A DNA stretch of 64,000 nucleotides from Paramyrothecium sp. XJ0827. Taxonomy: Eukaryota; Ascomycota; Sordariomycetes; Hypocreales; Stachybotryaceae. A program made the position numbers and the translations under genes. Below are positions 355 through 57,408 of the stretch, in pieces (the first letter of the stretch is position 1; every line of letters begins with the position of its first letter). Where the stretch lies: positions 248,001 through 312,000 of the forward strand of contig JAJFPB010000007.1 of assembly GCA_020881915.1 (NCBI GenBank), given 5' to 3'. The notes under the pieces were generated by a model, which saw only the letters and a list, made by a program, of their open reading frames with translations, was not told where the DNA came from and made no database searches.

Positions 355-836
355 GGTGACGATAAGTAGATGTAGACGTTCTATGCGAGGCTGGTGTGAC
401 CAGACAAATGTACGTATGATAGCTGACGGATAACTAAATAGAGACGAGATAGATATTTAGAAAAAGTCTCAAGCTGAGGTGGCAAAGCGGGGAAGCCTGC
501 AAATCGCATCACAGTCGCTGATCGAGTCTATCATAGTACTAACCCTAAATTGGAAATCGTCTTGTGGGATCTAAAATCCAGGAAGTATTGCGCGTATTGT
601 GTTGTAGAGAGTGTGAAATCATGGTGCTAAACCGAAACCCCGGAATGAAATTGGCCAAATGCAATTCAACAGCGCTTCTCTAGTCACTTAGAATTTTCCC
701 CGTGGTCTAAGGCCATCATTGAACAGTCTCGCACTCGGACCAGTAGGCGACAACTTTCCTGAGTAACAGCATAGCCGCAAAATTCTTGAATCTACTACTA
801 TTATGGCAACTGCGGAGTTTAGATCTTATATCCTGC
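355..836. other. Intergenic, no gene seen
   Basis: This holds the 5' flank of the HET gene and the 3' flank of the small secreted-protein gene. I see no supported ORF or RNA gene. Confidence 0.5.
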
Positions 837-1191
837 TTAGCAGTCTCCTTTCCGGTACCAGAAACCGCCAAGGCAATCCCGATCGAAAGGCTGGCACCAC
901 TATTCGAAAAACACAATGCCTTCGTTAGCCTCTTTTCGCCTGGTCTAGAATGTTGCGATTACTTACAAAGATCCAGCAGCCACCATCCGCACGGCACTCG
1001 CCGGCACAAGCTCGCTCTTTGAGAGCAGAACCCTGCTTGAGAGCAGAACTCTGCTTGGAAGTGGAGGTTAGCTTGACTACATCAGGCATTGGAGTGTTGC
1101 TTACAGCGACCTCGGCGGCAGGCGCAGCGGGTGAGGCGGGCGCGGCGACGGCAAGGCCGAGAAGTCCGGTGAAGATGATGGTCAACTTCAT
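837..1191 (-). CDS. Small secreted cysteine-rich protein (95 aa, one intron)
   Basis: Exon 1 is 1191..967 and exon 2 is 899..837, joined across a 67-bp intron (900..966, GTAAGT donor, AATAG acceptor, phase 0). The 95-aa product starts with a signal peptide (MKLTIIFTGLLGLAVAAPAS), then a low-complexity Ala/Pro/Ser/Lys stretch, then a compact C-terminal module of about 30 residues holding all six cysteines (C-x3-C-x5-C-x4-C-x6-C-x10-C). Two Lys/Glu/Arg-rich segments, 'SALKQGSALKERAC', precede the module and could be a pro-region. Size, secretion signal and an even cysteine count fit effector-like or antimicrobial small secreted proteins, but I recognise no family. The continuous frame into exon 2, with three more cysteines before the stop, supports the intron. 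An unspliced reading would end at 925. Confidence 0.65.
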
Positions 1192-3758
1192 TGTAATGGC
1201 TGTTGAGCTGCGCGACTAACATATGAGAAGTGTGACGAGTGGGATAAGATCGGTCTATGGACGGAACACCTATCTGTTTTATAGTCGTTGAAGAGGCAGT
1301 GGAAGAGAATGGACTTCGGAATATCGCAAGGGCTATATAAAATCTGCAAATACCTGCCTCTTTTGAAATTCATGTAGAGCTTGAAGAAGCAGGAGGGGAA
1401 GCATTGCCAAGACATGTGATGAGATGTTTAAACCCTGAAAGAAACATTCTCCCGCAATCATCCCTTCGCTACGACCCTGGTACTGATGGAAGTTGCGGAG
1501 TTCAAGGTTATCGAGCCAACAGTAATCTTCAATTCAAGGTTGAGCCCTTATTCCTCTGAATCCTTCACGATAGGGGGGATGCGAAATTGTGGGGAGGTAG
1601 GAACCGAACCAGCCAACAAGATGGTGGGCAAGGATCCGCCCTTGTAGTCTGCATCTTCTTGCATTATCAACTATTGCCACATATCTTCAGACTCCTAGTA
1701 ATTCATTCATTGTTCCTCGTATATCTGCCTGGAGATGTCAGTAGACGACGATCGGCAATCTATCGTCTCCACAAGAACATGCTGTTCTAGGAGTTTGCGA
1801 GACATTCGTACGCGTCTATTAATTGACTGTCGATGTAGTCTATCTGGGCACTCCTCACCTTCTCCACACAAGCAGAATACACAGGACGCCATTGCCGCCG
1901 GAAAAGAACGAGGGTTTTGGGGAGCACTTTCCCAGGAATGCAGCTGAGGCCATAGAAATGGTTGAGGCAGCTATAGCTAAGACGTTAACATAATGGAAGT
2001 TAAGTCCACTTATCCATCCCTAGTGACACGGGTAGACAACTTGAAATGGAAATGACGAACTTCCGCAGTGGTGATAGCTGACACGGAAAGCTTTGCCGAT
2101 GGGCAGCCTATAGACACGATTCTTCCCACTTGCGAAAAATTTCCGATCATAGCCGTATGCCGACAAAACGTATTTGGCAGCATTGGCCATATCTTAGTCG
2201 ACTTGAATATTCCGATGCCCGTGGCCACGGCCAATCTGACGGAGCGCTTCCAAGACTCTGACCGTCGCCCCCTCTCGAAGGCAATAATACCAAGATGGAG
2301 CAGATCCTTGCAGTTGTGTCCATTGCAGTCTCCACAATTGTGAAGGCGACTAAGATAAGTGTGTGGACAAAGCCATTGCTGCAAGTTTACCGAATGTAGA
2401 TAAGAAGGTACGGGCTACGGTCACGACGTTTCTCTTTCCAGATACCAGGTCTGACTCTATCGTCGTTTAGGCTCGAACAGTTCCTTCTAGGTGTGCGGCA
2501 TGATTGCTTCATGACCAGACTATCCACTTATCAAGGCCGAGGGCAAGGAGAAGCAGCGCCTTAATCCTTCGATTCTCGGCGTCAGTCTCCACTGGAATTA
2601 TGATACAGTCTTTGAGGACTTGCGAGTCGAAAAACTGCAGTCAGAAACATGCCCGGTTTCTCCACGCTCACGGTTCTATCGCGAACAGATAAGATCCGCC
2701 GCCAATATGATCTGATCTACATCACAGATGACCAGCAGTGAAGGGAGCTATCTTCATATACAGGGGACAGTGCATGGTTACAATGGTTGAGCAGATAGTT
2801 TCAGAGTGAATTTTTTGGTCGCATTTCACAAACTAGTAGATCGCTTCTGGGGTACATTACGCCTGCCAGGGCCAGGCAGAAGCCTCATTTTCGTGCTACG
2901 TTACCCCAACAGGTAAATGAAGGCCAATTTCATAGTCATTGGGTACACTTTTGAAAGACGTCCTGTATAAGGGCTCCACAGCTTAATGGCCCGTGAACCG
3001 CAGGAGGGCTCCTCACTCCATAGAATCTAAGTAGGCAGGGGAGCTCGGAAGGTCCTGGATCTTGGGCGAGTGCCGCTCTCGAAGACCGGTTAACGCAGAA
3101 CCAGAGAAGCAAGCAGCCTCTCACCTTTACCGGGGTCAAGGGGGCAAAAGAAAAATGGCAAAGATGCGGAGAAACTCATTGGCAGACACGACGCTTGATC
3201 CCATACAGCGTCACTCTCAGCAACCTATCTGCCAAACCACAAGAGCGCTTCCGCATGACGGAAGGGGACTGTAACATGAAACTAGCCAACGATATCTGAT
3301 TATAATATACACGTCCTCCCCATTAATTCCGGCAAATCCAGATTTGGACACTCTCATGAATCTCCATCCAGTCAGGAGTTTGTTGTTTGCCGAGGCGAGT
3401 GGGTTCAGCGTCCCCGCTCATGGCATTCCATTTGATGTCGACATCAGGGACAAGATGCTTCGAATAATCGTTTAAATGTGAGCTCGCCTGGCAAGACGGG
3501 TAATGGGCAGTGAGGTAGAATAATCGCTGTTTGTTTAAAATAAAATAAAAAAGACTGTTAACAACTTTGATTCGTCGTGGACAAGTATTCCCTGATGGCG
3601 GTTGGGTGTAGTAATGCATTTGGCATAAGCTTGCATATATCTGTTACATTTTGTACAACTATTAGGTAAACTATCATCTACCCAAAAGCGCTAGTTCTCA
3701 AAAGATATTTAAAGTAAAGTGATTATACATGAGCATCTCTAATTTCTCCTGCACGGCC
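1192..3758. other. Long intergenic stretch, no supported gene
   Basis: About 2.6 kb. A TATATA stretch at about 1333-1338 lies some 140 bp upstream of the 95-aa secreted gene and could be its promoter. Overlapping ORFs on both strands at 2010-2384 have no recognisable domain, signal peptide or consistent splice partners, so I do not call a gene. 3541-3560 is A/T-rich. Confidence 0.5.
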
Positions 3759-5279
3759 TTAGCATGCAGTGTCAGCAAGACCGCCGCCATAGAGGTCCTT
3801 CCACTGCTGGGATTGCTCTTCCATAGGCAGCTCGACACGGTCGGTGCAGCTGTGGTACCGGGGAATAACGACCACATCACCCTCATCATCACCCGTGATA
3901 GACTTGGCAACGGTATCAGAGCAAGCATTCGGCGTCGTCGAACTGAAGGGAGCATCCTTGAGGCAGTAGAGAATCATTTCACCGAAGTTGGGCTCATATT
4001 CGGAGAAGGTACCGCAGCTTTGCAGCATGGTGGGAACCTTCATCCAGAAGCCACATTTGCCCTCGCCGCCAAAATCAACACCCTGGGTAGTCATCTCTTG
4101 CTTGCCCCAGGTGAAACCAAAGCTGATACCGGCCGAGAGAATCTTTTCAATAGGGCTACCACCGCCGCCGCTCAGACCGAAGTTGGCGGCGATTGACCTT
4201 TCGAAGCTGTAGCCCTCACCTTCTTCGAGGTAGCAGCTATTTCCCAGGCAGAAGCGAGTTTTCTCGTACTCCTCGGCCTGGCCAAAATACTTGGTAGCAC
4301 GGACTTCGCAATACTGGCCGCAGCCGTCACCGTCATCTTGCTGTGTCCAGGGGCAGTCGCCAGATTCGTTCATGAGGATCTTGGGCTCGCAGACCTCTTC
4401 GGTGCAGCCCTTGACTTCAGGGGTATCCGGCCTGATGCAGCGCTTCTCGACGAGACCCCTCCTGTTCTTCTTGCCTGGGTTTCCGGCGCGACCAATTCCG
4501 GCACGGGCGAAGAGGTTATACCGAACCTTGTTGTCAAGGATAACCTTCCCAGATTTGCCGTTCGCGGAGCACTGCTCCTGCATCAGGTCGAGGGCAGCTT
4601 CGAGTTGGTCAATGTTGACCTGGTACTCGACGTCACCGTTGTTGCAAACCTCAGCAACAGTATTGCTAACATCCTGGTTGCGACAAGTATGAGGAGGGAG
4701 CGTCACGCCGTTTCTGATATGCTTCAGGAGGGCATCGGAGGCCGCTGCGGCGTTGTCTGCGTTAGTGGCAGCGTTGCCTAGACAGTCGATTATGGCGGTG
4801 TCACCGAGGAGCTCGAGGGCGTGGGAGACAATACTAGCGTCCTCACCACGCTTCACACGGTGGTTCTGAATCTCGCCAATGTAGTTGCCCGGGAAGTCGC
4901 GGTGGTCACGAGCGTCAAGGGGCACGATGGAGGCTGAGGCCTGCAACAGCAGGGTTCCGATGACGACAAGAGCAGCGGCCATTTTGGGGACCCTGAGTCT
5001 GGGGATTGCTGCGGATGTATTGCAAAGGGCGGCGATGAGACGAAAGTCTTGCTTGTGTTGGGCGAAGCAGGTGTCGCACGAGTCCAATTCGCAGATGCAG
5101 GTGGCGCGCTCTTCTCCGACAGGTTTTGCCTCGGAGCAGCAGGGTTGGAAGACGTTGGGGTCAGCGGTGATGTTGGACTTTTCAAATCCGGTGAGCAAGG
5201 AGCAGGATCCCGAGTCGGGAAAGCTAAGAATGGGCTCGGCGTGACTGAATAGTTCTGTTTCGTTGACGAAGCTGTTCAT
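3759..5279 (-). CDS. Secreted or membrane-anchored cysteine-rich protein with dibasic processing sites (506 aa)
   Basis: A single exon. The open frame extends upstream to 5357 but has no ATG there, so the first ATG is 5279. An alternative start is the ATG at 4982 (residue 100), which begins a good signal peptide (MAAALVVIGTLLLQASAS). If 5279 is used, that segment would be an internal membrane anchor after a cysteine-rich N-terminal domain. Dibasic Kex2-type sites follow at residues 143-144 (HRVKR) and 279-280 (LVEKR). The part after the second site (about 226 aa) contains 14 cysteines, a Gly-rich stretch near 'LSGGGGSP', and a 'GKCGFWMKVP..QSCGTFSE' region. I recognise no named family. The Cys-rich end and the CGFW..CGT pattern recall secreted proteins often found near killer-toxin-like chitinases, and such a chitinase lies 9 kb away; that link is inference. 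Confidence 0.7.
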   Translation of the reverse strand: MNSFVNETELFSHAEPILSFPDSGSCSLLTGFEKSNITADPNVFQPCCSEAKPVGEERATCICELDSCDTCFAQHKQDFRLIAALCNTSAAIPRLRVPKMAAALVVIGTLLLQASASIVPLDARDHRDFPGNYIGEIQNHRVKRGEDASIVSHALELLGDTAIIDCLGNAATNADNAAAASDALLKHIRNGVTLPPHTCRNQDVSNTVAEVCNNGDVEYQVNIDQLEAALDLMQEQCSANGKSGKVILDNKVRYNLFARAGIGRAGNPGKKNRRGLVEKRCIRPDTPEVKGCTEEVCEPKILMNESGDCPWTQQDDGDGCGQYCEVRATKYFGQAEEYEKTRFCLGNSCYLEEGEGYSFERSIAANFGLSGGGGSPIEKILSAGISFGFTWGKQEMTTQGVDFGGEGKCGFWMKVPTMLQSCGTFSEYEPNFGEMILYCLKDAPFSSTTPNACSDTVAKSITGDDEGDVVVIPRYHSCTDRVELPMEEQSQQWKDLYGGGLADTAC

Positions 5280-6772
5280 AATGGTTGAGATGAGACTGGA
5301 TATAATGAGAGCTCGTGATGAATGATGGAAGGAAACATGATGCTTTATAGTTATCACTCTGAATATCTATCTACAGCATCTGATAGCGAGTAGCACCATG
5401 GCCCTTGTAGGATGCTGGTGCTGCTCTTGATGATGACGATAACGGAAACTCGGCACATTCAACGTGAGCACGAGGAAGGAAAGGTGCCCCTGCGTAATGG
5501 CCTGGGGACGATGAGCTGAACATGGAGTTGGTGAGGCTGTAATGGCAACGGCTGTGGCGATCGTTAGGAAGACTGGAGTTGGGCTGTTTCATGTCGTCAA
5601 GAAGGAACAGAAATACAAGCGCTAATGGAAGGAATTGCTCAGTCGTTCCTTTGCTTTTGTCTCAATAGAGAGTATCTCGGCGTCAATCCTCATACATCCT
5701 TGCCTCTGTTCCCTATGAACGTGGCCCTAGCTACTCCTGACTTGTCGAGTATGGTTTAGCTGAAGTTAGTCCCTGCATCCTTCAGAGTCGTGGCGAAAAT
5801 GGGACCATGCCTTGCATGCATAGGAGCTGCAACCAGGTGAGCCTAGAAAGCGGGGGATTCTACGATGGAGACGGTGAGATTATGACGTTTTCTGTGTTAG
5901 GGGTGGTTTTTTGGGTAGCGGTAGGGACTAAATATAGTCCATAGCTGGGTTTCTCGGTTGTGTGGGATTCACATCCTGGTCTAATTGCAAATCCCCTACT
6001 TATGCAGAGTAGCCTAGAGCCATAAGTGCGATAGGTCAAATCACTGCAGGTTTATTTCTACCTACTTGGCTTAGTTACAGCCGATCTTTTAGAAACACTT
6101 AACTGGGCTTTTATGACGTAGGCCTGGAGAAAAGTGTAGTTCGCAATTGGGCAACGCACATAAATTTGGCTGGATTTCAATGTCACTTACGTCTCTAAGC
6201 CTTGTGCGCTTGTAGGAAATCAATTGGAATGTTAGAGAAATCACGGCGGTGACAATACCACCTGAACTTCCAATACTAAGAACCAGCCACGCGTGGGCCA
6301 TCTTCAATCTCATTAGGGCTATACAACATGTGCCTTTCAGCCGCTTGTTCTACCATAAAATCGCTTCACAGCACCGGCCTCAAGCTCATAAATCAGGTCT
6401 TCCATTTCGAGGGTGTGATCCAATAGCTTCGTGCTGCATTGGCAGGAGACGTGATTTTCGATTGCGAAGCGAGATAATTATCAGATGCCCAGCCAAAGAG
6501 AGCAGAATGCTCTCAAGATTAGGGAGAAGCACGTAATAATGGGACCTCTATATGTCTGGGGTTTCCGTAGTTGTTGTACGTCCGGGTCCAAGTCCTTGTT
6601 CACAAGGGGACATTTTGCATTAGGGTTCTCTCATCAAACAAGGCGCGGTTGATAAGATGAGTCTTTTACCGCAGGGTATTGCGAAAGATAACATTCGCGC
6701 GGCTTAACAAAAGAAAGTACAAAAACTCGATGCATTATACGTCAATCGCTTTGACAAACTCTAATTCGTCTC
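5280..6772. other. Intergenic, no supported gene
   Basis: Apart from the TATA-like box, about 1.5 kb with only short ORFs that overlap on both strands and show no family features. Confidence 0.5.
5343..5349 (-). promoter_or_regulatory. TATA-like box upstream of the 506-aa secreted protein
   Basis: TATAAAG on the minus strand, about 65-70 bp upstream of the ATG at 5279. It supports 5279 over the internal ATG as the start. Confidence 0.4.
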
Positions 6773-7517
6773 TTAACTCAAGAGAAATCCGACAACACCA
6801 CTAATTAAACATAGGTTCGCCAGTCCTATGCTCGAGAGCGCATCAGCTCCACCATCAGTAGGTTCCGAAGTCGGTGCTACGCCCGTCAGCGTCCTTTCCG
6901 TGACCAGCGACTCCAGCCCAGGCCCCTGCTGCTCGGCGGTGGCCGTGAAGTAATTGCTTGCAGCCGTCGGCTTCGTCGTGGTTGGCGTTTCGCCGGGAGC
7001 CCACTGGCCGCTCCAAGTTTCCGTGACCATGACGCCGCTAAGGATGGACGCGAGGTCTGGGGTCTCGGTTCCTTCGCAGTAGGCGCTCGACACGCTCGAC
7101 GCCAGTCTGCTTTCCTGGGAGTAGTCGTTTTCCGAGATGAGGTCTTGATATGCGAGGCAGGCACTGCAGCCGATAGTGTCTTCGAAAAATGATCCTAACA
7201 AAGGATGGTCAACGTTCGGTTGCTTAAGTCAGCTGTGTTGCCAAGAGGCAAAATATGTCAAATTTACCATTGCACACGCATTCTTGCATTTCGCTGGACG
7301 TCAGATTCGTGTCATCCCTGCCAATTCCGCAAGCCTCAGTGATCTTCCGCTGTCGAACACATGGCGGAAGCGACTCGTCGGCGTTACCACCCACAGTATC
7401 GAGATCGCTTGGGAAGCATGGATGAGATTCTTCGCGATCAGGACGGCCCGGCGGGGGGCGAGCCGATATCGTATGTGCGAGGGACGCAACCGCGATAAGA
7501 AGACTCGTCTTGAGCAT
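6773..7517 (-). CDS. Probable GPI-anchored Ser/Thr-rich cell-wall protein (223 aa, one intron)
   Basis: Exons are 7517..7268 and 7194..6773, split by a 73-bp intron (7195..7267, GTAAAT donor, TTGTTAG acceptor, phase 1). The ATG at 7517 opens a clear signal peptide (MLKTSLLIAVASLAHTISA); an in-frame extension upstream lacks a signal and is ignored. The N-terminal half carries spaced cysteines, including C-x-C (ECVCNG) just before the intron and GC-x2-C just after it. A Ser/Thr/Pro/Gly-rich stretch follows, and the chain ends in a hydrophobic tail (LISGVVGFLLS), the layout of GPI-anchored wall proteins. It probably sits in the plasma membrane or wall. Function is unknown. Confidence 0.72.
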
Positions 7518-8452
7518 TTTCTTTTTTAAATCCTCACGGGGACGAAGCAGCTGAGGTGGCCAGAAGCGTCGATGGCGATTGGTACAGCTTGCACGGAGAA
7601 AGCTGAGGCGGAATGCTAGCCAGCTCAGAGGCACCAGGGGGTTTAAGGTTAGTTGTAGTGGTGCCTAGTAGAAACAAGCTGAGGGAGTGTCAGGGGAGGT
7701 TTCATTCCAAGCACGCCTAAAATGTCCCACGTGGGGACCTTCGGCTCACAAGTATTACGTAGTGGTGCGATGACATCACTAGGGGGATTGCTATATTGGG
7801 ATATCCTGAGACTCGAGATCTGGGGACTCCGTTGCGGACCGGTACGTGCACCGCCACTTTGATCAAGGGTCGACTCATGGGACTCACGTGATGCCATCTG
7901 GCCCAGTTAGGAAGTAGATCTGTTCACTCAACACGGTGGGTCATTGGACTTCCCCCAGGATCACCACAAAGTGTTGCCTTTTTTCATTTAGTCATGGCAA
8001 GTTCTCACTAGCTACATCTCTACTAGCCCTAGCCTTCCGTCGTAGTTCTAAACTTATCTTGGAATTGATTAAGCCTTGCCAATATGGAACTTGACCCTTC
8101 CACATTCGATCACTTTGAGTGGATTCCACCGCTGCATAGACACGAAACCTCATGTCCGTGCAATTAGCAGGTGTGGCTATACTCGTAGCCTTCCAGTATA
8201 ACATACCTCACCCGCCTTGTATTGTGTCTCCTTTGTCTAGATTTTAACTAGAACCGGAAGAATGGTTAATTTAACCCATCCCTCTAGCTACCCTATACGC
8301 TTCAAATACCCTGTTCATGCAAACGTGGCCGCTGGTGCCTGTAATAATCCTTCCGATTTTCCTTCCATCCTTCCGAGCTTGCCGGCCAAGAACTGCGTAG
8401 ACACTGGTTTCTCAATCAAAGAGATAATTAACTGTGCCGAGACAAAATCAAA
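7518..8452. other. Divergent intergenic region, no gene seen
   Basis: Lies between the minus-strand GPI-protein gene and the plus-strand SDR, so it should contain both promoters. I see no supported ORF. Confidence 0.5.
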
Positions 8453-9445
8453 ATGGTTTCTTACAAACACATCGTCGCCTCCAATGCGCTCATCAATGAC
8501 GCAACGGCACCACGTGTCGCAGTCTTTGTCAGTGGCACATCTGGCATTGGCAGATTGACACTCCAGGCGCTTGTCTCTACGGGGACGAACATGCGAATTT
8601 ATCTGGTCGGGCGCAAAAGCTCTGAAGAACGGATGCAATCCTTCATTGAGGATCTTCATGTCAACAATCCCAAAGCGGAGATCATTTGGATCACAGCTGA
8701 AGTTTCACTCTTGGCAGAGACGAAGAGGGTGTGCGAGATTATCAAGCGCAAAGAGTCAACTGTAGACTTGCTCTTCCTAACGACCGGATATACGACGTTC
8801 GGCCCGCGTGATGAGACTGCGGAAGGCCTGGACACCTCTCAGAGCCTGGCCTACTACTCGCGAATGCTCTTCGTCTTGCAACTCTTGCCTCTCCTGAACC
8901 GGGCAGAGGCTGCCAAGGTCGTCAGCGTCCTGGCTGGAGGCCTTGAACGAGCAAATATTAATCTTGATGACTTGGACTTGAGGACACCCGGGAGCTTCGG
9001 AATCGTCCAGGCCTGGACGCATAATGTCGGCATGACCACAATGACCTTGGACAAGATAGCCAACGAGAATCCCAACGTCACATTCATACATTCTGCTCCG
9101 GGCTGGGTCAACACGGGAAATGTCAACAGGGGCAACCCCAACTGGCTCATGGGCTGGTTCGTTCGGCTAGTCCTTGAGCCACTCATCGTCCTGTTCAGTT
9201 TCAGCGATGAGGAGTCTTCCCAACGCTACCTGTTTCAAAGCACAAACGCGGCTTATGGTGGGCACGGTGTACCATGGACAGGCCAGCCAGGTGTGAATTC
9301 GAGAGGGAAGCCTGAAAATGGATTATTCCTAGTCAACTCCAAGTGTGACTGTGTTTCTAATGCGAAGACTCTCGAGGCGCTTAGAGAGGCGACGCAACAG
9401 AAGATTTGGGATCATACATTGGCGACTTTTCAGCCTTACCTTTGA
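8453..9445 (+). CDS. Short-chain dehydrogenase/reductase-like protein (330 aa)
   Basis: An intronless ORF. Near residues 21-33 it has a beta strand and the cofactor-binding glycine motif 'VAVFVSGTSGIGR' (TGxxxGIG-type), followed by an Arg-containing segment (LVGRKS) typical of NADP-binding members. The central 'DLLFLTTGY' is where NNAG sits in canonical SDRs, and 'VKVVSVLAGG'-like and 'HSAPGWVNT' segments match the Ser strand and the P-G loop after it. The expected YxxxK pair is not evident: the region after the Ser strand reads 'HNVGMTTMTLDK' with no Tyr four before the Lys. It belongs to a divergent fungal SDR group often annotated as hypothetical oxidoreductases of secondary metabolism. 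Activity is uncertain. The start is the first ATG of a long open frame. Confidence 0.82.
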   Translation: MVSYKHIVASNALINDATAPRVAVFVSGTSGIGRLTLQALVSTGTNMRIYLVGRKSSEERMQSFIEDLHVNNPKAEIIWITAEVSLLAETKRVCEIIKRKESTVDLLFLTTGYTTFGPRDETAEGLDTSQSLAYYSRMLFVLQLLPLLNRAEAAKVVSVLAGGLERANINLDDLDLRTPGSFGIVQAWTHNVGMTTMTLDKIANENPNVTFIHSAPGWVNTGNVNRGNPNWLMGWFVRLVLEPLIVLFSFSDEESSQRYLFQSTNAAYGGHGVPWTGQPGVNSRGKPENGLFLVNSKCDCVSNAKTLEALREATQQKIWDHTLATFQPYL

Positions 9446-9935
9446 TTGGCACAATCAACAACAAAACCGGCCAGACACAATCAGGCTCTGTGAAGGTTCG
9501 AAGCTGGGGATGGAGAATGGAAACCAACCTTGACCCCGCGAGCCCGACACCGCTCGCAAGCTGTGAAAACCAACCTGCACGGGTGTGACGGGTCCACCTC
9601 TCAACCTTTCCCTTTCTCTCATGCTTCTTCTGACTATGGCTCGACGTCCTTCCTGTTAGTCTTGTCGACAGCTTATTCATATGAAAAGCTGTCAGTTCTG
9701 TTTGGGATGCCAAAGATAGGAAAAAGGATTTTTAAAAATTTAGATCCGGAGATTTCCAGAAACTACTCTCGTCCTCCTCGTAAGAAAATTCTGTAATTTT
9801 GTCTTTGACGATAATCCGAAAAATTCCTGCCTGTCCAATTTCTGCATGTAGTCTCAACAGCCTACCGTCCAGACGCCATTCAAGACAATCCTCATAGATG
9901 AGAAGCCCAGCACCTTGCTACATCCGAGGGCTAGG
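9446..9935. other. Convergent intergenic region
   Basis: Lies between the 3' ends of the SDR and the minus-strand broken secreted protein. No gene seen. Confidence 0.5.
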
Positions 9936-12459: not shown

Positions 12460-14234
12460 ATGGTCAGAAAGTCCGTAGCAGACTTACCGAATATCCACAG
12501 TGCAGTAGAGTTCTTCGAATCAGGGATGAGAATGCTGCTCCCACATATCCCATTCATTTGGCCGGCCAGAGCATACACTATCCATGATCCCTGGAAAAGT
12601 AAGCTAAAGGCCGCTCATCATCAACGAATGCTCACCTGCCTTAGAGTATGCCGATGCAAGATCAGACCTGATAGCCTTGACACAGTTGTCAACTCCGAGT
12701 TATGCCGTGTACATAACCTCTTGCCCAAAGACTTCTCGACTCATCTTGTCAAAAAGCAATGCTTTTCTGAAGCCGTTAGACATGTTTCGCTACCGCGCTA
12801 TCAATATATTCGGCAATCAGATTGTTTCTGCACAGAATGGCCTTGATCATAGGCGCCACCGAATAGCTGTACAAGGCTGTTTTGGGGAGTCGACCATGCA
12901 AGGCGGCTGGGGTTCCATGGCTGGCGCATTTCAAGAAATGATTCAGCAGGAGCAGCTTGCATCCGGAGGTGTGCTTGTCGATACTAGGGAGGTCATGATG
13001 AAGGTAAATTAGCCTCACTGTACTGTTCCCACTCTGACAGTTTCAGGTTACTACACGAGTAATCTTCCGTTCTTGGTTTGGAATTGAGTCGCCCTGGACT
13101 ATACCGGATACCAAGGATGCTATCAGTAAGATTTCTGATTCAATCTTTGGGCTCATGTCACTACTGATTTCCGTAAGTGCCTTTTTACGAAGCCCTCCAC
13201 GTCGTCGAGAGTTCAATGCTTCCTCAACTGCTATTACCATTGGTTAGTATTCAGATACATAGCCACAGCGTGCTGCAACCATGTTAATATGCCCTTTAGT
13301 GGTTCATGGAATACAATCCAATATCAAGCATACGCCGCATGGGCAGAGCTCAAAGGTGCATGTTGAACCATCTTAGATCGATGATGAAGAGAAGACGAGC
13401 CGAGTTGGCGGGGGATGCGAACGGGAAACAGCCCATCCCACTAGACATTCTCGGCGCCTTGGTCGCTGCTTCTCCAGTCAATGGGGATATCAACCTCAAT
13501 TCCGAGTCGGGGCTGAGCGAGGAGGAAATTATCGGCAACATCTTCTCTTTGTAGTGTAAGAAGGTCATGGTATTTTGTAGTTCACTCTAACATCCTCCAG
13601 GGCCGGACACGAGACGACATTAAACGCACTCACATTTACTCTAGCCTTCCTTGCAATCTACCCAGAATGGCAGGAAAAAATATACCTGGAAATAGTTCGA
13701 ACTGTTCAGGAAGGTCTGCCAACGTATCAAGACATCAACGCACTACCGTTAGTGCTGGCGACGTGTTATGAGGCAATCCGTCTGAGAGATCTGGTAATGA
13801 CGATGCCAAAGGTAACGAGCGAAGATATAGCAATACCTTACAAGACGTGGACCTCGGGAGGTGAAGCCACAGAAAGGGTTCGCGTTATTCCAAAAGGTTC
13901 ACATGTGGTTATCGACTCTCCAGCATGTCAGAGGAATCCATTTACTTGGGATGATGCCATGGAGTTCAGACCTACTCGTCACATGGTCGGACAAGCAATA
14001 AACTCTGAGAATTTCATAGGCTTCTCTAGAGGGGAAAGGAAGTGCATCGGGAAGAGGTTTGCAGAAGTTGAAATGGTTTGTTTCCTCTCTCACCTTGTTA
14101 AGACCTTTACGTGGACTGCAGTTCCTATTGACGGGGAGACCGAGGAACAACTGAAGGAGAGAATATTAAGTGGGAGAGAGGCGTTGAGTCTGAGACCCGG
14201 TTCTTTCAGTCTAAAACTTACGAAACGCCTTTAG
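12460..14234 (+). CDS. Cytochrome P450 (about 502 aa from 12460; start and one splice doubtful)
   Basis: Proposed exons are 12460..12598, 12645..13003, 13047..13172, 13300..13550 and 13601..14234. They sum to a whole number of codons. The I-helix has AGHETT, the K-helix has EAIR (ExxR), and the heme-binding loop is FSRGERKCIG, with the thiolate Cys conserved, so this is a class II-type fungal monooxygenase, normally ER-bound. Two doubts. First, a hydrophobic anchor is encoded just upstream of the ATG at 12460, so the true start may lie in an unseen upstream exon. Second, the intron before AGHETT needs a weak GTAGTG donor and leaves the I-helix about two residues short. One extra T at 13550 would instead permit a better GTAAGA donor and a full-length helix, so a 1-nt deletion is possible. 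Substrate unknown. Confidence 0.72.
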
Positions 14235-14456: not shown

Positions 14457-17400
14457 CTATGCCTTGCTGAGGCCGCCGCTCAAGGTCTTGCATTTCGGGT
14501 CGAACTGCGCACAATTGAAAGCGCCGCAAGTGATGGGCACCGGACAGTTTTCACAGGTGCTAGCACCCCCGGTGCCGGTCCAGACAGTCTCGCGCCTCCA
14601 TCCACTCGTTCTGCCCAGTCCCGATGGGCAGACTATTTTGTCGTTGTACAACTGGTCCTTGAAGGTCATGGGGATGACGGTGCTATCCTTGTCTTTGTAC
14701 TCAAAGGTCACGCCCCCTCCAAGGACCCTGGCATTGGCCCCGTTGCCGCAGGTAAAGTCACGGCCACCAATGATTGGGCCCTTGTGGTACTCGTCGCACG
14801 TGAGAACGCCGTCCTCCCATGCCTGCACATACCAGAGGTCTGGCTCGTCATTGTCGCAGTGGTACATGAAGACGTGCACTGCCACGCAGGGTTTGCGTGC
14901 AGGAGGCTTTGGCGTATCGGTCTTCTTGGGCAGCTCCCACGATGCGCAGCCGCTGGTTGTTGCCGTTGCGTCGCCCTTGGGTCCGCCGGTGATGGTCCAG
15001 GTCTCGCTCTTGACGCAGCTGGCGCCGGACTCGGTAGGGCTCGGCACGCCAACGGGGTTCAGGGTGGGAAGGCCTTCAAGCGACGTTGGCTTTGGTTCAA
15101 CAGGCTTCCAGCTGATGCTCGTGAACCAGCCCCATCCCGGCGGCAGGCCCGGTCCGCTGCCGCCGTTGCTGCCGCCGGTAGAACTGGGCGCCGGCGAGCT
15201 GAAGTCTGGCGGCGTGCCGGTGGGGGTCGGGTTACAGTAGTAGCCCGAGCAGAGGCGGCCGCAGTTCTCCTGGCACAAGGGGCCCGGGGGTCCCGGCTTG
15301 TACTCAACTGGTGGGCCACGGGGTGACGGGACTTGATTGTTGCCGCCGCCCGGCAGCTCACAGGATTGACGCCCCTGGAGGTCGCGCTTACAAGCGCCGC
15401 CCTCGATGGGTCCTCGGGGGTATCCATTCCACACTACCTTTGGTCGGCCGCCGTCGGGCTTTTCGAAGAGTGTCACTACTCTCGACCTTGAAGTCACGGA
15501 CTGGAATGCTTGGGAGGGTGTGAGTGGCCTAATCCCTCGCATATATGCGACCAGGCCAGCGACCAAGGGACCGGCTGGAGCAAAAGCATATTAGATTCAA
15601 GGCGTCCCGGGGACCGTTCAGGGAGGTAAGGATGGATGCAACGTACCAAATGACGTGCCGTGAGCGCCTTTGCCGTAGTCTGCCTCCCAGAGGGCCCTAC
15701 CATTAGGCACGGGAGTAGGCAAATAGGAACCAGGAGCCCATACGTTCTGGAAATCGCCTCCATTATCACCAACCTTGGCGCCTTGCTTGTCAACGTAGCC
15801 CACGATGAGCATCGACCCAATGTGTTCGCGGCACATCTGCGGCCACTGCACGTCCTTCTCGTAATCGTACTGGCCACTGACAACAAAGGAAACGCCCTGC
15901 AACTGCTCCATCTTATGCATGATCATACAAACAACCAACCCCAGTCGTGGAGCGCTGAATAATCCGTCCAAATCAAATCCGAAGGCCATGGCGACAACGC
16001 TTGTGTCTTTGCCATTGATATCTTCCGCCACGTTGATAAGGCCTTCAATAAAGGATACGAAGTACCCTCCAGTAGGAGCAAAGACGACCTTTGCTTTAGG
16101 AGCAAGGCTGAAGCCTTGACCTGCGGCATACACTGCTGCAAGATATCCGTGGTCCTCGGCTGACCTAACCTTGGATGCGGGCCATTGTTCCTTCCATGAT
16201 TGCCAGGCCGTCGGGGGAGGGATCCCTCTGGGGCTCGCGTTTGAGATGGCCTGTGAGTTAATTGTTAGCCTCCCGGATAGGGCAAACAGACGTGGTCCCT
16301 TGTAATCTCACAGGTTGATCTGCTCCTCGCCAAACAACATCCATCACATAAATGGTCTGTCCAGAGCCAGCGCTGTCATCGAAACCATGAGAGTAACGGC
16401 CGATGACCGGCAGGTGATCCTCCTCGTTGTCATTCAAAAATTTGAAATCTTTGTCAAATGGCAAACCTTCGGGCAGAGACATCATGGATAAGAACCACTT
16501 GTCCGTTTGCTTTTCATCTCGCCTTGTCAAGTGCCCGCTGTTCATGGGTTGGAAGGATTCTTCTCTTGTGATGGGAACAAGTCTCTCCCGCGGCGCGCGC
16601 TCGGGGACTGAGGCTTGCCGGCGACCTGGAGAAGAAGGGTCTGCGAGCCTTGTCCCATCTGAATCCAATGCAAGCGCAACCTGGGGGAATTGAGTTGTTT
16701 GAAAATGAGAGCTGGGAACGACATGCCTCTTCACTCACCTCTGGGACTTGGTCCGAGCCAAAAAATGCAATGGACACTGGTCCCATGCTGTTCAACTGGA
16801 ACATGGCGGTGAAGCCTATTTTAGACGACCGGATTTCTCTCCAGCCTCCGTCCAGCTTTAGTGTCTTAAACTCATCTTCGCGATCTTCCAGGATGGCTCG
16901 TATCTCTTCGAGATCATTCTCGTTTTGTGATGCCGGCACGAGAAGACCTTGTTTTCCAGCCGTCTCACAATCCCAAGTGCCCTCCTCGTCGGCTCTCTTT
17001 CTATGCCTCTTTGGTTTGGTATCTTGCTTGTCATCTGCCAGGTCTACGAACTCGGGCACCTTTGTGGCCTCCGGTAACGGGGCCGCAGTACGGGGGCGGA
17101 GCTTGCAGGCATTCTCGACCTTTGATGTCTCAACATCACGGAGGTTGCAGCCTGTAATCGTAGCGCATTTTGACGTAGTCTGGGATGCTGTTGTTCTTGT
17201 TACTCCCCCAGATACTGTGGTGGCATATGAGAGGGTCGTGAGGCAGAAAGAGGCCTCCGCTGGAGTGCAGCCGTCCGGCTTGGGAGGAGGGCTGAACTTG
17301 CCACCGGGCCCCACGGTGATCTTTGGCCATGGAGGCAAGGTGCCCTTGATGGTAAAACCAGGAGGCAGCTTGATGAGACCGATGGGCGGCGGGCCAGGGC

Positions 17401-20097
17401 CCCAAATTCCTTGTGGCATATTCCATTCCCACCCTTGAAAGTTGATGTTGAACTCGGGCCAGCTGATGCAGAGAGTGAAAAACCAGAGGTTGCATGGCGA
17501 TTTGAAGTGCTCAGGATCACTGTCGTCGCCGTCTTCGGGAACCTTGGTCGGCACGGGGGTACCTTCAATCTCGTCCGGCCAAGTCCCTGTTGGTTGTACC
17601 TGGCCACCAGGAAAAGTAAACGGAGGCTTCGATGTGACTTCAAAAGTAGGCATGGGAAAATTAACAGGAGGTGGGAATGTGGTAGGAATGCCTGTCTCCC
17701 CCGGAGGCTTCCCATCAGTAGGCCCTGGCGGCTGTCCACTGTTCGGAGGACGGACACCCACGATGGCAGGCCAGGGCGGCAGCTCAAGCGTTCTGACCTG
17801 GGTCTCGCCGGCGGGTATCGTAATTGTAGTCGTGATTGGCCGGATTGAAAGGCTGACGAAAGGAGTAAATGTCGACTGAGCTGAAGAGCCAGATGGAACC
17901 ATCTGGTTGTAGAACTCCAGAGTGTCGGTTGTGATTGCAGGGATGGGGATGGTGAGTGTAGTCGTGGTACCTGGCTTCAGTTCGATGGATGTAACGTAGG
18001 GCGGGATTGAGATGGTTGTCTTTGATGGCAGAGCCCTAGGAGGGAGCACAAACTGACAGGGCGCGGAGCATTGCGCGGGTTTGCCGGTGTAAACGGCCGG
18101 GTCAAGATAAACAACTTCGCCGTACTCGTCCTCCGCATTGCCGGAGCCGGTGGATTGGAAGTCAATAGACCAAATCATGGTACCGCCAAAGCAAAGCCCA
18201 TCTGCAAAGGCCCGCTTGGCCGCAAAGGTCTCTTCGTCATCATAGCCGATCCACTGATCATCCCAGGTGATTTGCTTCATCATAGAGTCAGCAAGATACT
18301 TGGGCGTCAACCTCCTCTTCTTAATTAGTTGCTCAATTTCAACTAGGGACATGACACCTTCAAAGTTAGTACAGGGCGCCGGCTTACTAGGCCCAGCAAA
18401 GGGACACAGTAAATCTGTGCAACTAGGGTCTGCTAAGGTATAACCACGGCCGTATAGGGCTAGGCCAAAGTTGATCTTAGCAGGGTTGAGGCCGTCGAAC
18501 CACAAAGGGATAGTATTCTTTTCGATTTCCCGGATATCGGCCTGGCCGCGGACCTTTTTGCCCAATGCCTTAACGTCGGCATCCCACGAGCCGTGGAGAT
18601 CTGTCATGAATTAGCCAGTGGACTCAGCTTACAATCAATATGCTGAGGGCCATACCATAGGCCATGAAGCCAAAGAAATCAACATAAGGCTCCATTGCCT
18701 TAGCATCGAACCACCGTAGGTACCAGTAGTCAGGCGCAAGCGTAAGGCTAATACCATAGCTTGTACCGTATGCTGCCCGCATCTCCTTAAGCAAAAGAGA
18801 GAAATTGCGAGTGTCGGCAAGCTTATTGCCGCCTCGTTCAGGAGCGCCTGGATACTCCCAGTCAAGGTCAACGCCAGTAAAGCCATAGGTATCCATATAC
18901 ACCTTGACCGAAGCAATAAATGCCGCTCTGTTAGCTTTAGTGGAAACCATCTCGCTCCTAGAAGAGGTTAGCATAGCCAAAAGGGTTCACTCATATTTAC
19001 ATACCAGGTCTTGTGTGTGGCAGCCTTGGGTTCACTCATATCGAAGCCACCAATCGCTATCCATGTTTTCAGGTTACTGCCCTTCGAAAGATCGGTAAAC
19101 TCTTTCATCAAGGTCTTATCATCAGGGTGTGCCTCAGTTACCATATAGGTATAGGGGTTAATAAAAGCAAAAGAATAGAATAGGTGGGTATAGCCATTTG
19201 TATTGAGCTGCTTTGGCGTAACCTTATTGCATACCCGGTCCCTAGCATTCCAAGACTGGTAATAACCGATGGTACGGCCCTTGGAGCTACCGCTCCCCTT
19301 CGCGCATGAAGGGGAACCGGTAATAGAACAGGAGCCATAGCCGGACTGACATGGGAGGGTGCCGTGGAGAGGGTCGGCATTATGGCAGTAGACATCCGTG
19401 GCTGAAAGCTGTCAGTGATCATGGCTTATACGCCGCCTACTTCGTCACTCACTTCCGCACCAGCCGGTAGCCGAACAACAAAGTTTCATTCCACACGGCA
19501 TTTCCGCATTCTCGCTGTACTCGCCACACATAGCCGTGGCATTGCATTGCGAGCTGCAACCATCGCCACAGAAATCAGGACCGTAACCACAAATGCCTTG
19601 CTTGCCACAACAGCTTTGTTCGTGTTAGTTGCATCAAGATCTTGAGAGTTGAGAAGCATAAATTAGAACCCCTACCTTCCGTCAATGCAAGGGCCATCTT
19701 TGCAGTAGAGCGGACCTGAATTGTCGGGCTCGGCGCGTGAGGTCAGGTTCGAGTCCAATTGCGGATGCCCGGAAGCCAAGTCGAAATCACCCGGCATAGC
19801 CTGAGGCGGGGCCTGGACCGGGTTCTGGTGGGCCGGGTTGAAACTGATCGTATCCCGCCATGCTGCGGCACATTAATCTCTGAATAGAGGGCCAGGACCA
19901 AGGAACATACATTCGTCAATGGTGGATCGCTGGATAACATCAGTCTGGTCGAGAGCAGATCGAGGGACAATGTTGGGCTGACGGTAGGTACGTTGGTAAC
20001 GAGGGACACTGGCATCTCCGTAGCTAGAGATTAGCAGCCAGAAAAAGAAAAGGCTGGCCGCGCTCCAAGCGGCCCATCGCCCAGCTTGTGAATACAT
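14457..20097 (-). CDS. Hevein/GH18 chitinase fused to a subtilisin-like domain and a cysteine-rich tail (1,728 aa, 9 exons)
   Basis: Exons: 20097..19911, 19862..19676, 19613..19453, 19401..19005, 18957..18656, 18600..16739, 16680..16312, 16250..15647, 15574..14457. All junctions are GT..AG and frame-consistent (5,187 nt). Order: signal peptide; two hevein-like chitin-binding segments (about 125-186, CCGKQGICG and CCSATGWCGTT); GH18 (about 221-560) with FTGVDLDWEYP, catalytic Glu 345, and FMAYDLHGSWD across a splice; Pro/Thr-rich region; dibasic KRHRKR (946-947); propeptide-like segment; S8 domain with Asp 1146 (IYVMD), His 1189 (DHG), Ser 1355 (GTSF); second KR (1419-1420); Cys-rich tail. The chitinase resembles the killer-toxin-like class V subgroup C and should act outside the cell on chitin. 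The S8 motifs are eroded: DVV for DTG, HGYLAAV for HGTxVAG, and Gln 1282 where the oxyanion Asn is expected. Two adjacent genes remain possible, but no stop or promoter separates them. Confidence 0.75.
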
Positions 20098-21871: not shown

Positions 21872-23125
21872 CTATACTAGTGAACGTGAAGAGATTGCGA
21901 AAAACGCTTTGATCTCTTCTTTTATGGCTGTCTTTACATCCTCCTCGGCCCAAGACATATCAACTGAATCTTTCTCCACCCTCATGATTTCCTCATCCGT
22001 GAACTGGGCTTTGATTCTCAACAGCGCCAGATTCTGTGTGATCCAGTTGCTTTCGACATACGCCGGGCTGTCCGAGCTAATATTGACCTTGATTCCAGCA
22101 TCAAACAGCTTCCTGACATGCGCAAATAGATCCTCTTCTTTATGATGCCTAACATAAGCCCAAGGACAGAGCGTGACACCGATTCCCTTGTCTTTGATCA
22201 GAGCAATCAACTCAGGTCTTTCGGCAGTGTCAAGTCCGTGGTCGAGCCGGTCGGCTCCCGTACCTCCCACGCATTCGGCCACTTGGCGAATATGTTCATG
22301 TGTGTCTTTCTGCGTAACATCGCAGTGGCATGTGAGTTTGAAACCATCTGCTCGGGCACGGAGATAGATTGGCTCGAAAAGGGACGGTGGACGATCATAC
22401 TCGTTAGAGTCGAGACCGATGCCTATGATCATGTCTCTGTACGGGAGTGCGGCTTCGTAGTGCTCCATTGCTGATTCGGGTGGCATATCGCGCAGCATGC
22501 ACATGATCCAATGCGATTTGACCTTGAATCATCAGCCTCGTCGTAATTTTTTAGTCGGCAGGTGACAAACATTAAGATTCTTCGCAGCGTCGATCTGGGC
22601 CCTCCTAAATGCTTTCATAAAGATTTCGAATTCGACACCTCGCCGAGTGTGCGCTTGCGGATCGAAGAATGGCTCACAGTACCTAACATTCATCCTGGCA
22701 CATTTCATAAAGTAATCCATAGCCAACTCGTAGAAGTCCTCTTCTGTTCTTAGTACTTCCATACCACCGTAATAAGCATCGAAAAATGCAGAAATTTGAT
22801 TTGCTCCTTTAATGCTTCGAGGTTGAAGAAGGTTGTACATTTCTTTTAGTTCATCCAATGTAGTGAAGGTCCTATTGAGTCGCTTAGAGTGAAGAGGGAT
22901 ATTGTTGGCTTGCCCAAGCTTGAAGCGCAGCTCGGGAGTGAGAGTCCCTTCGATGTGGACATGAAGCTCCACTTTGGGAATTCGGGCTATGAAGGGGTCA
23001 TGAAGCGAATTGGCTTGTTGCTTCCCTGGTCGGCGGCAAATTAGCTGCGCGTTGGCTTACTTTGCTTCTGCATTTGCCAGAATCAACTTACAATCCTGAA
23101 GTGTCTCATAAGGGATGGGACCCAT
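21872..23125 (-). CDS. Adenosine-deaminase-family protein (375 aa, 3 exons)
   Basis: Exons are 23125..23092, 23013..22571 and 22522..21872, with introns of 78 and 48 bp (donors GTAAGT and GTTTGT); the total is a whole number of codons. The first exon supplies the ATG. The metal-binding 'VELHVHIEGTL' (HxH), 'SHWIMCMLRD', 'GIGLDSNE', 'RLDHG' and 'SSDSPAYV' blocks are in family order and at family length (about 350 aa). Known members hydrolyse adenosine or adenine in purine salvage. Here the HAGE block, whose Glu is the proton shuttle, reads 'CHCDVTQ', and the SDDP block reads SDSP. The first change is shared, as far as I recall, by a fungal clade; the second is less usual. Cytosolic, no signal peptide. 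Substrate is uncertain. The gene lies between two copies of a RIP-marked repeat. Confidence 0.8.
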
Positions 23126-33839: not shown

Positions 33840-34501
33840 GGTAATGATTTCCTGTTTAGCTTGAGCGTATGCTGGAGAGCAACTCACGACTTCAAATCGT
33901 TTTAGAGTGGGAACAATCACGCCGTTGTTTTCAATCAAGAAGGCCCCTCAAGGCAGGCACATGCTGATGTAAGATGACGTAGGTTCGTCGGTCTGAGAAT
34001 TACGTGGTCAGTTACATCAAGTAACATATGGTGTCAACGTAACCTTCATCTCCAAGCATCACTTGCGTTAAGATCAAGTTGGATCTGGGAGCATGAATCG
34101 GATTACAGCCTTGCATACTCGAGGGGATATGTATTGGTGACTGAATCGTTAGCAAACCCAATAGCCGAACGTATGATGGTTATGATGTCTGATGATACAT
34201 GCAGGGTAGTCTTGGAAGAAAGGCCATCTGAATTCAGCTTGCATGGACTTCCTGGGAAAACGGCAAGTAAAAGAATACATTCATCTCCAACGGTATGTTT
34301 GATAAACACATGTAACAATATTCATGCAGCCATAGCTGCAGTGCTGCCTGACTCTTTCAGACAAGGCCTGGCCTCTTTTGCACGCCTCACTTATTCAACC
34401 CCGCACGACACCTTTTGCGATAACATCATGCAGCTTCACAAAGGTCTCTGTCAAAGACCCTCTACATTCTCGGCCTAGGCTTATTTCACGAGTCTCATGT
34501 C
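33840..34501. other. Divergent intergenic region
   Basis: A plus-strand ORF at 34134-34478 ends just before the next gene but has no recognisable feature and no splice join that keeps frame. No gene called. Confidence 0.45.
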
Positions 34502-55618: not shown

Positions 55619-56028
55619 CTATTCCATCCGCTGTACCCGTCGCATGCGCCGGGACGAGCAAGGTGCAGGTGTATGAACTGGCACGCCGGGACTGGTAGAG
55701 TTTCCAGGGACTTCTGGCGCGACAACAACAGGTGTCTCGTTGATAGGAGTTTCATAAATAGGAGGCTTGACTGGTGTCTCGACTGGAGGCTCGACCGGAG
55801 TAGGAACAGGGGTCTCAACTGGTGTCTCGACAGGTGGTTCAATAGGAGTCTCGACAGGAGTCTCAATAGGCGGTATCACAGGTGTCGGAGTTGGAGTTTC
55901 GATCGGAGTTTGAACAGGAGTCTTGATAGGGGTTTCGCTGGGCGGCTGCACTGGGGTCTCAACCGGCGTTTCAACCGGAGTCTCGATAGGAGTTTCAACA
56001 GGAGTCTGGACAGGAGTCTCGACGGGCG

Positions 56029-56160
56029 TCTCAATGGGCGTCTCAATGGGCGTCTCAATGGGCGTCTCAATGGGCGTCTCAATGGGCGTCTCAATGGGCG
56101 TCTCAATGGGCGTCTCAATGGGCGTCTCAATGGGCGTCTCAATGGGCGTCTCAATGGGCG
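56029..56160 (-). repeat. 12-bp minisatellite, 11 perfect copies
   Basis: TCTCAATGGGCG repeated head-to-tail, encoding Pro-Ile-Glu-Thr on the minus strand within the split gene. It lies between more diverged copies of the same unit, so it is probably a recent expansion by slippage or unequal exchange. Confidence 0.95.
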
Positions 56161-56193
56161 TCTCCACCGGCGGTTCAACCGGAGTCTCAACGG

Positions 56194-56400
56194 GAGGCTC
56201 GACAGGAGGCTCGGCAGGAGGCTCGACAGGAGGCTCAACAGGTGGCTCAACAGGGGGTTGAACGGGGGGTTCGACAGGAGGCTCGGCAGGAGGCTCGACA
56301 GGAGGCTCAACAGGTGGCTCAACAGGGGGTTGAACGGGGGGTTCGACAGGAGGCTCAACGGGAGGTTCAACAGGGGGTTGAACGGGGGGCTCAACAGGAG
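56194..56400 (-). repeat. Degenerate proline-rich coding repeat with a tandem block duplication
   Basis: Units of 12 bp (for example CAGGAGGCTCGA) encode Pro-Val-Glu-Pro and variants. A block containing CAGGTGGCTCAACAGG is present twice, about 80 bp apart. Confidence 0.8.
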
Positions 56401-56539
56401 GTTGTGGAATCTCGACTGGTCTTTCCTCAAGAACCAAGCACTCACCCCACAATTCATGTCGAAGACGAAGGAGCTGGATCTTATTCGGTTGATCTTTGGG
56501 CTTTCCGATGCCGTAGAAGAAATTTAGGTTAGCTCCGAC

Positions 56540-56547
56540 ACCAACAC
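56540..56547. repeat. Target-site duplication, left copy
   Basis: ACCAACAC, directly repeated at 57409-57416 on the other side of the element. Confidence 0.9.
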
Positions 56548-57011
56548 CAGTGAAGTAAATAGTGCAAAATACGGTATACGATATTTTTTCAACGCCACAC
56601 TGCACTGGATTGTTTAGGAATTCGGTGCACTGCACGGCATACGGTATTCCACTATATTTAAGCAATATCGTATCGTAATATCATATCGCACGGCGTGCGA
56701 AGAGCCGCATGGCCTAAGCATAAAACTAACCAAATTGAGTAAGGTTGAGGCTCAAGATAGTCTCACGGACCCTAACAAGATGAAGCCATTCACAGCCAAC
56801 ATATAAGATTATACTATTGCCAGATAACGAGAACGCTCGGGAAAACGTTTTCCTAGACCTCGCTCGCGTATGTTAAGGGTTTACTTAAGCTACATTATTG
56901 ACTAATTTAACGTCACTCCTATTGCTTAGGTGTGAGAATGAAATAGGTAGATCTAGAGGTCAAAAGAAAACTCCACAGATTCGAGCATTATGAGTTTGAA
57001 TTGTTTGCATA

Positions 57012-57194: not shown

Positions 57195-57324
57195 TTGGAG
57201 GCATATATGGGGAGAGTCCTCGTATTACTCGTATTACATAGTACTTGCACTATATTTGATATCATATTTATACGATATTTGAACGACCATGCACTGTATT
57301 ACACGGTTTCCGGTGTTGCTTGCA

Positions 57325-57350: not shown

Positions 57351-57408
57351 GCAATACGATATTGAATATGATATTGTCTTATTTACGGCCACACTATTTA
57401 CTTCACTG

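Follow-up and report, generated by a model that had tools for sequence, protein, structure and literature searches.

A chitinase–subtilisin-like fusion gene of Paramyrothecium and its relatives among fungal wall hydrolases

The closest described systems to the gene considered here are large chitinases of filamentous fungi and killer-toxin precursors of yeasts. Group C (killer-toxin-like) chitinase proteins of Mycogone perniciosa reach up to 1,406 amino acids (aa) according to passages of PMC7829358, and GH18 proteins with LysM or chitin-binding parts that also carry Hce2, a putative effector domain, appear in passages of PMC8042737 and PMC3689799. ORF2p of plasmid pDH5A from Debaryomyces hansenii combines ChtBD1, GH18, several Kex2 motifs and a terminal nuclease fragment, and KEX1/KEX2 processing is required for the secretion of active killer toxins (both from passages of PMC8472843). 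Here we analyse a gene that joins a hevein-type GH18 chitinase to a subtilisin-like (S8) domain in a stretch of 64,000 nucleotides (nt) from Paramyrothecium sp. XJ0827 (assembly GCA_020881915.1, contig JAJFPB010000007.1, positions 248,001 to 312,000), referred to throughout as the window.

On the peptidase side, portions of two papers state that all S8 subtilases surveyed contain the Asp-His-Ser triad (PMC5371821) and that most serine-protease families contain single-domain proteins (PMC5567314). The words 'peptidase', 'protease' and 'subtilase' never occur in the main text of a 373-genome chitinase survey (PMC8042737). A preliminary description of the locus knew of no described family with this domain order, and no description of a GH18–S8 or GH55–S8 protein was found in the literature searched, which included text portions of PMC5371821, PMC5567314, PMC6240243, PMC8042737, PMC3689799, PMC7829358 and PMC8472843, with supplements outside the search; the order is nevertheless not unique, at least 15 cluster representatives having GH18 and S8 together. 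We read the gene as encoding a secreted precursor in which a wall-polysaccharide hydrolase would carry a swappable, kexin-split cassette with a fast-evolving S8 payload, and we give this reading a probability of roughly 0.55.

Gene model and domain order

Independent splicing of nine minus-strand exons, from 20097 to 14457, reproduced to the residue the 1,728-aa product of the preliminary description, which had joined nine exons in one frame across GT..AG introns. The eight GT-AG introns are 47–72 nt long, with phases 1, 2, 1, 2, 1, 0, 0 and 1, and the stop codon is TAG (14459-14457). The parts of the gene are as follows, with their basis in parentheses.

14457..20097, minus strand: whole coding region, nine exons, 1,728 aa (splicing; homology to P0001)
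20011..20097, minus strand: hydrophobic N-terminus, signal-peptide-like, about aa 1-29 (judged from the sequence by eye)
19367..19701, minus strand: hevein-type chitin-binding region, aa 117-190, 13 Cys, with introns 19675-19614 and 19452-19402 (PF00187)
18161..19276, minus strand: GH18 domain, aa 221-558, with introns 19004-18958 and 18655-18601 (PF00704, 173 bits)
18855..18857, minus strand: GH18 catalytic Glu345 in GVDLDWEYPG (DLDWEYPG motif)
16994..18142, minus strand: Pro/Thr/Cys linker, aa 565-947, entirely within exon 6 (sequence; 86.5% identity to P0001)
16994..17011, minus strand: dibasic site 1, KRHRKR, aa 942-947 (KR/RR pair before the leader)
16519..16993, minus strand: leader, aa 948-1086, holding intron 16738-16681; not I9-like by sequence (sequence; I9 comparisons)
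16681..16738, minus strand: phase-0 intron, GTGAGT..CCCCAG, 58 nt (splicing; homology to P0001)
16519..16524, minus strand: dibasic site 2, RR, aa 1085-1086, immediately before the S8 start (KR/RR pair)
15408..16518, minus strand: S8-like domain, aa 1087-1412, with introns 16311-16251 and 15646-15575 (PF00082, 24.2 bits)
16339..16341, minus strand: S8 Asp1146, YVMD (column table; register with a solved proteinase K-type chain)
16149..16151, minus strand: S8 His1189, DHGY (column table)
15867..15872, minus strand: oxyanion position, Gln1282-Tyr1283 in VVSGQYD, Asn in most relatives, xxxGN (column table)
15651..15653, minus strand: S8 Ser1355 in GTSFAGPLVAG, shortly ahead of intron 15646-15575 (column table)
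15384..15389, minus strand: dibasic site 3, KR, aa 1419-1420, after the S8 domain (KR/RR pair)
14457..15383, minus strand: Cys-rich tail, aa 1421-1728, with the stop codon; no Pfam match (Pfam scan; 18 Cys in aa 1413-1728)

The chitin-binding, GH18 and S8 parts that had been proposed, with Glu345 as the GH18 catalytic residue, all exceed their Pfam cut-offs: Chitin_bind_1 (PF00187) passes barely, at 27.9 bits against 27.8, GH18 scores 173 bits, and Peptidase_S8 (PF00082) lies just above its limit at 24.2 bits against 21.8. The S8 match is thus a divergent one, as a six-frame, exon-by-exon search of the genome with PF00082 also indicates: none of its 92 matches falls in the window gene. At E <= 10 the scan of the window protein returned only PF00704, PF00187 and PF00082, and Hce2 was not found. 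The GH18 domain keeps its DxDxE core in addition to the chitin-binding module.

That no stop separates the chitinase from the protease part, as first described, is borne out by exon 6 (18600-16739; 1,862 nt), which runs from the last portion of GH18 through all of the linker into the S8 leader. Its coding frame is stop-free, each of the remaining five frames holds 10–48 stops, and none of 2,000 first-order Markov simulations of the stretch was open in a given frame. The intron at 16738-16681 is phase 0 and keeps the frame, again as described, and is supported because the match to P0001, a 1,747-aa protein of Paramyrothecium foliicola annotated as one protein, carries on over the splice. P0001 is 80% identical over window-protein residues 780-1728; all 121 residues of the segment 880-1000 align to it at 80.2% identity, and within this aligned stretch P0001 has its own 4-residue insertion near the dibasic site. 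Identity between the two proteins is 97.3% in the hevein region, 95.9% in GH18, 86.5% in the linker, 76.3% in the leader, 81.2% in S8 and 86.9% in the tail.

One gene encoding one precursor is well supported, because the GH18 end and the leader share a stop-free exon and relatives are annotated as single proteins; a two-gene model was ruled out on the same exon and the same fused relatives. We consider it very improbable that two neighbouring genes were mistakenly joined into one model: a further locus of this genome (L035), where an S8 part has no recognisable hydrolase directly in frame, would fit such an error, but here the GH18 end and the leader sit in one exon, and 27 cluster representatives are annotated with hydrolase and S8 in a single protein.

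Partner hydrolases and divergence of the S8 module

Homologue searches found relatives with GH18 and Peptidase_S8 annotated as single fused proteins, not as two genes; such fusions sit in public databases with both domains called. Both homologue searches scored only about 8,000 candidates, so the family counts are lower bounds. Window residues 780-1728 retrieved at least 16 proteins (11 GH18+S8, two PF12708+S8 and three with a hydrolase domain and no S8 call), and the S8 part of P0007 retrieved at least 19, 15 of them new (four GH18+S8, ten PF12708+S8 and one S8 only, the last named glucan 1,3-beta-glucosidase, partial). In total, GH18+S8 occurs in at least 15 cluster representatives and PF12708+S8 in at least 12, PF12708 being what we take to be a GH55-type family label; many PF12708 fusions are named glucan 1,3-beta-glucosidase or exo-beta-1,3-glucanase. 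Named sources of the fusions are Fusarium, Colletotrichum, Verticillium, Apiospora, Diaporthe and Podospora, with the PF12708 form also in Histoplasma, Blastomyces and Paracoccidioides. Judged from domain calls, the GH18–S8 order marks a family found across several genera of Sordariomycetes; a GH55-type version extends to Onygenales.

The PF12708+S8 proteins of Histoplasma, Blastomyces and Paracoccidioides (P0024-P0027, P0030, P0031, P0033 and P0034) are annotated as glucanases, as hypothetical proteins and once as a LysM protein, and mostly lack dibasic sites. Two other gene models call for remark: that of P0013 reads GTSFGKLQDPLPHC where relatives have an intron, which is probably retained in the model, and that of P0004, with its additional Pfam domains, may extend into a gene next to it. 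A profile search among proteins of about S8 length gave no convincing stand-alone fungal relative; scoring was confined to the 8,000 candidates with the most words in common, which leaves absence unproven. Its three matches were P0017 (236 aa, leader only), P0018 (from a Chloroflexi bacterium, annotated as S8/S53 peptidase) and P0019 (unnamed, with PF00082).

The window's genome (G000; 51.8 Mb, 15 contigs) holds the S8 module at eight further places, established from 27 of 28 search matches, the window's own four included; the remaining match, a weak one at C8:4116072 (E 0.066), falls on an ordinary subtilase locus and was disregarded. Hevein–GH18 lies upstream of the module at L033, L034 and L036 (tblastn with the window protein; the GH18 of L036 also by Pfam, 178 bits). 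By Pfam, LysM (24.1 bits), Chitin_bind_1 (28.2 bits) and GH18 (111 bits) precede the module at L038, and GH71 (PF03659; 148 and 209 bits on two frames) precedes it at L039. Locus L035 (reverse-complement 446-4981 and 6595-9880) comprises a GH55-type gene with linker and Cys tail and no S8, followed by the S8 copy mentioned above, which is sister to that of P0020, a GH18 fusion of Fusarium avenaceum. No hydrolase was present in the two upstream frames scanned at L037, one of them synaptobrevin-like, and L040 is a remnant. The L039 gene is probably broken by a recent transposon: between its GH71-linker and S8 module lies an element that has inverted ends and of which the genome holds four further copies at 99–100% identity; seven more places match it at 68%.

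L039:4900-7040 (G000:C9:2012399-2014539): 2.1-kb element (copies, inverted ends)

At L033-L039 the reading breaks right after G[TS]Sx and resumes at A[AT]P[LMV]VAG, as at window intron 15646-15575; it resumes in another frame at six of the seven loci and, at L038, in the same frame beyond a stop. Because this position after the Ser motif is common to the window and L033-L039, the intron points to common descent of the module.

Across different partners the junction, approximately VV-Y/F-L-x-P-x-VY-x-G-x-PAQC-xx-PC, is alike after GH18, LysM-GH18 (P0007) and GH55-type domains (P0004, P0010, P0023), and a strict form of its Cys part is matched by 17 of 35 proteins. An S8 tree was built with IQ-TREE from 34 rows, two of which (L035, L037) have no partner label; P0008, P0014, P0015, P0017, P0018, P0019, L036 and L040 were left out as short, bacterial, fragmentary or degenerate, and P0016 has no S8 match. 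With four partner classes, the best tree needs 8 changes, the least possible being 3 and the shuffled mean 12.7. P0004 (GH55-type) is sister to L033 (GH18) with support 100/98, and P0007 (LysM-GH18) to L034 (hevein-GH18) with support 100/99; it is mainly these two cases that count, as 13 of the tree's 31 inner branches are unresolved and long branches lead to four rows. At the sequence level, the S8 module shows partner swapping.

Identities of GH18 and S8 were compared in 13 GH18+S8 proteins (78 pairs), P0020 being dropped since its GH18 coverage was below the limit. Where GH18 is 80–90% identical (37 of the 78 pairs), the mature S8 parts are only 25–43% identical (mean 32.1); GH18 identities of 70–80% (25 pairs) go with 22–34% in S8, and those above 90% (4 pairs) with 61–82%. 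The 12 pairs that fall outside these bins, with GH18 below 40%, all involve P0022. Identity to the window's GH18 is 29% for P0022 and 31.7% for the LysM protein P0007. By pairwise identity, then, the S8 part diverges fast relative to GH18.

Around the fusion gene, the window contains a cytochrome P450 (PF00067) at 13581-14234 on the plus strand and an adenosine deaminase-like frame (PF00962) at 21872-22528 on the minus strand. Elsewhere, open frames of 684 codons (34424-36478, plus strand) and 535 codons (3759-5366, minus strand) have no Pfam match at E <= 0.001, and two frames at 55619-58521 (minus strand) match DUF7223, one of them DUF7029 too.

The S8 active site

All ten members of an alignment of the S8 module (A1) match PF00082 at E <= 1 (best 5.6e-21), and the family profile matches proteinase K-type chains (best E 4e-26), the four active-site positions being in register in the one alignment shown. 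All ten members also match the mycosin model of the bacterial type VII secretion system in NCBIfam (best E 5.6e-17); the single member with a bit score given, 26.1, lies far below the cut-off of 278.75. The segment ahead of the domain had been called propeptide-like, a label that did not hold: Inhibitor_I9 had no Pfam match in any of the ten A1 members, and hhalign against 11 I9 segments of the same genome gave a probability of 0.3%, with no detectable similarity. Neither comparison thus found an I9 propeptide, and the segment is termed a leader only.

Residues were counted over 38 rows (8 loci, 29 proteins and the window), with P0015, P0017, P0018 and P0019 left out and gaps uncounted; since the rows are related to one another, the counts do not stand for independent events. 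All 37 rows covered have His and all 33 covered have Ser; the row of L039 shows a Ser from beyond the wrong splice boundary, and its true GTSMG was read directly from the sequence. The catalytic Asp column, covered in 34 rows, holds Glu in 17, Asp in 12, Gly in 3 and Asn in 2, and the L034 copy reads Glu, His, Asn, Ser. Of 20 ordinary subtilase loci in this genome, a pattern open to either Asp or Glu fitted 17, and each of these has Asp. Asn occupies the oxyanion column in 29 of 36 rows and is present through a one-residue register shift in L035 and P0020 (LAGNY, with Tyr in the column); it is lost in five, namely the window, P0001, P0004, L033 and P0025. The window copy keeps Asp1146, His1189 and Ser1355 in register, in agreement with the Asp/His/Ser assigned earlier. 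Because its oxyanion Asn is gone, its S8 part may be weakened or inactive, and the proteolysis proposed for this protein is in question; copies elsewhere in the genome, L034 for example, are better preserved.

Could the S8 part instead, at least in the window copy, be a pseudoprotease, secreted to bind or dock by means of a subtilisin scaffold that has ceased to cleave? The five oxyanion losses, the presence of Asn or Gly instead of Asp in 5 of 34 rows, and the faster evolution of S8 than of GH18 would all fit such a domain. Nevertheless, His and Ser are invariant in the rows covered though pairs are mostly 22–43% identical, the Asp column holds Asp or Glu in 29 of 34 rows, and Asn persists in 29 of 36 with two more by register shift. 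We regard a pseudoprotease as unlikely; for the family as a whole, the active-site pattern suits catalysis better than binding.

Predicted processing, proposed role and known systems

Dibasic (kexin-type) sites stand before the leader, before S8 and after S8 in the window protein. Among the proteins testable at each site, all 14 have a KR/RR pair in the 30 aa preceding the leader, 15 of 22 have one in the 20 aa preceding the S8 start, and 16 of 28 have one in the 40 aa following the S8 domain; as background, such a pair occurs in 369 of 8,400 windows of 20 aa drawn at random from other parts of these proteins. For the GH18 group this naturally suggests cutting by kexin into hydrolase, leader, S8 part and tail, the parts probably being cut apart rather than held in one mature chain. 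Chitin attack had been proposed to be coupled to proteolysis or protein binding in one secreted precursor; the single precursor stands, whereas coupling in one mature chain is doubtful because dibasic sites flank the leader and the S8 module.

The cassette behind the hydrolase would thus be ordered as linker, dibasic site, leader, dibasic site, S8 serine-peptidase-like domain, dibasic site and Cys-rich tail. Kexin in the secretory pathway would cut the precursor, and the chitinase and the S8 part would leave the cell in equal amounts, as separate chains unless otherwise held together. The hydrolase would bind and open chitin or glucan of the fungal wall, and the S8 part would then cut or bind proteins exposed in or under that wall, a rival's or the fungus's own. 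The partner hydrolases (GH18, GH55-type and GH71) presumably all act on fungal wall polymers.

Several observations weigh against a swappable, kexin-released peptidase payload. Since the Asp column holds Gly or Asn in 5 of 34 rows and the window copy has lost its oxyanion Asn, S8 activity is not assured, and the leader has no Inhibitor_I9 match. Well-supported branches alone force fewer partner changes than the best tree, at least 4 for GH18 and at least 3 for GH55; some gene models, that of P0004 included, were made automatically, and an error in one could look like a swap. The dibasic counts use windows of 30, 20 and 40 aa with a background taken for 20 aa only, and of the eight Onygenales rows, just one of the 7 tested for site 2 has it, while 3 of 8 have site 3.

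As for the role of the precursor, a fast payload on a conserved carrier, many copies and partner swapping favour conflict, whereas the module's presence in Onygenales speaks rather for self-remodelling in some of the family or more. Wall self-remodelling or nutrition, in which hydrolase and protease would jointly break down wall material and neither a rival nor a special delivery would be involved, is a serious possibility that we place below even odds. GH55-type fusions occur in Histoplasma, Blastomyces and Paracoccidioides, none of which we know as an attacker of fungi, and free-living digestion would require only the two activities. A conserved carrier with a payload at 25–43% identity, many copies and partner swapping tell against it, as such features are more typical of conflict systems. 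The fullest form of the conflict idea is tentative and on the unlikely side: a polymorphic antagonism system of filamentous fungi, in which conserved chitin, beta-glucan and alpha-glucan hydrolases would be interchangeable carriers of a rapidly diverging, kexin-released S8 payload, many members having Glu-His-Ser rather than Asp-His-Ser.

We know of no role for the long C-terminal parts of killer-toxin-like fungal chitinases. Here the C-terminal part contains a recognisable enzyme domain common to chitinases, GH55-type glucanases and a GH71 glucanase, swapped among these carriers and evolving far faster than they do. An S8 domain offers a testable activity and target, which makes a role in wall remodelling or fungal rivalry approachable, and the family supplies a natural series of Asp-to-Glu subtilases for examining the textbook catalytic triad.

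Compared with fungal S8 subtilases of proteinase K type, the module shares the profile match and, in one alignment, the register of four active-site positions; it differs in having Glu for Asp in 17 of 34 rows, and a stand-alone form was not found. Hce2-GH18 proteins likewise add a domain to a chitinase, but Hce2 is not an S8-fold enzyme and has no match in the window protein. With group C chitinases the fusions share large size, GH18, hevein or LysM chitin-binding parts and long extensions, and P0007 is even named 'Killer toxin subunits alpha/beta'; the extension, however, holds an S8 domain. On domain order the family is a variant of killer-toxin-like multidomain hydrolases, with a payload not found interpreted as an enzyme domain in the literature searched. 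By analogy of layout, pDH5A ORF2p is the closest architectural parallel seen. Like it and zymocin among yeast GH18 killer-toxin precursors, the window family has a chitinase carrier, cut sites (the cutting being predicted here) and a C-terminal payload. The yeast payload is a nuclease fragment, in zymocin a tRNA-cutting subunit, rather than a serine peptidase, and the yeast precursors are encoded on cytoplasmic plasmids, whereas the fusions described here are chromosomal genes of filamentous fungi.

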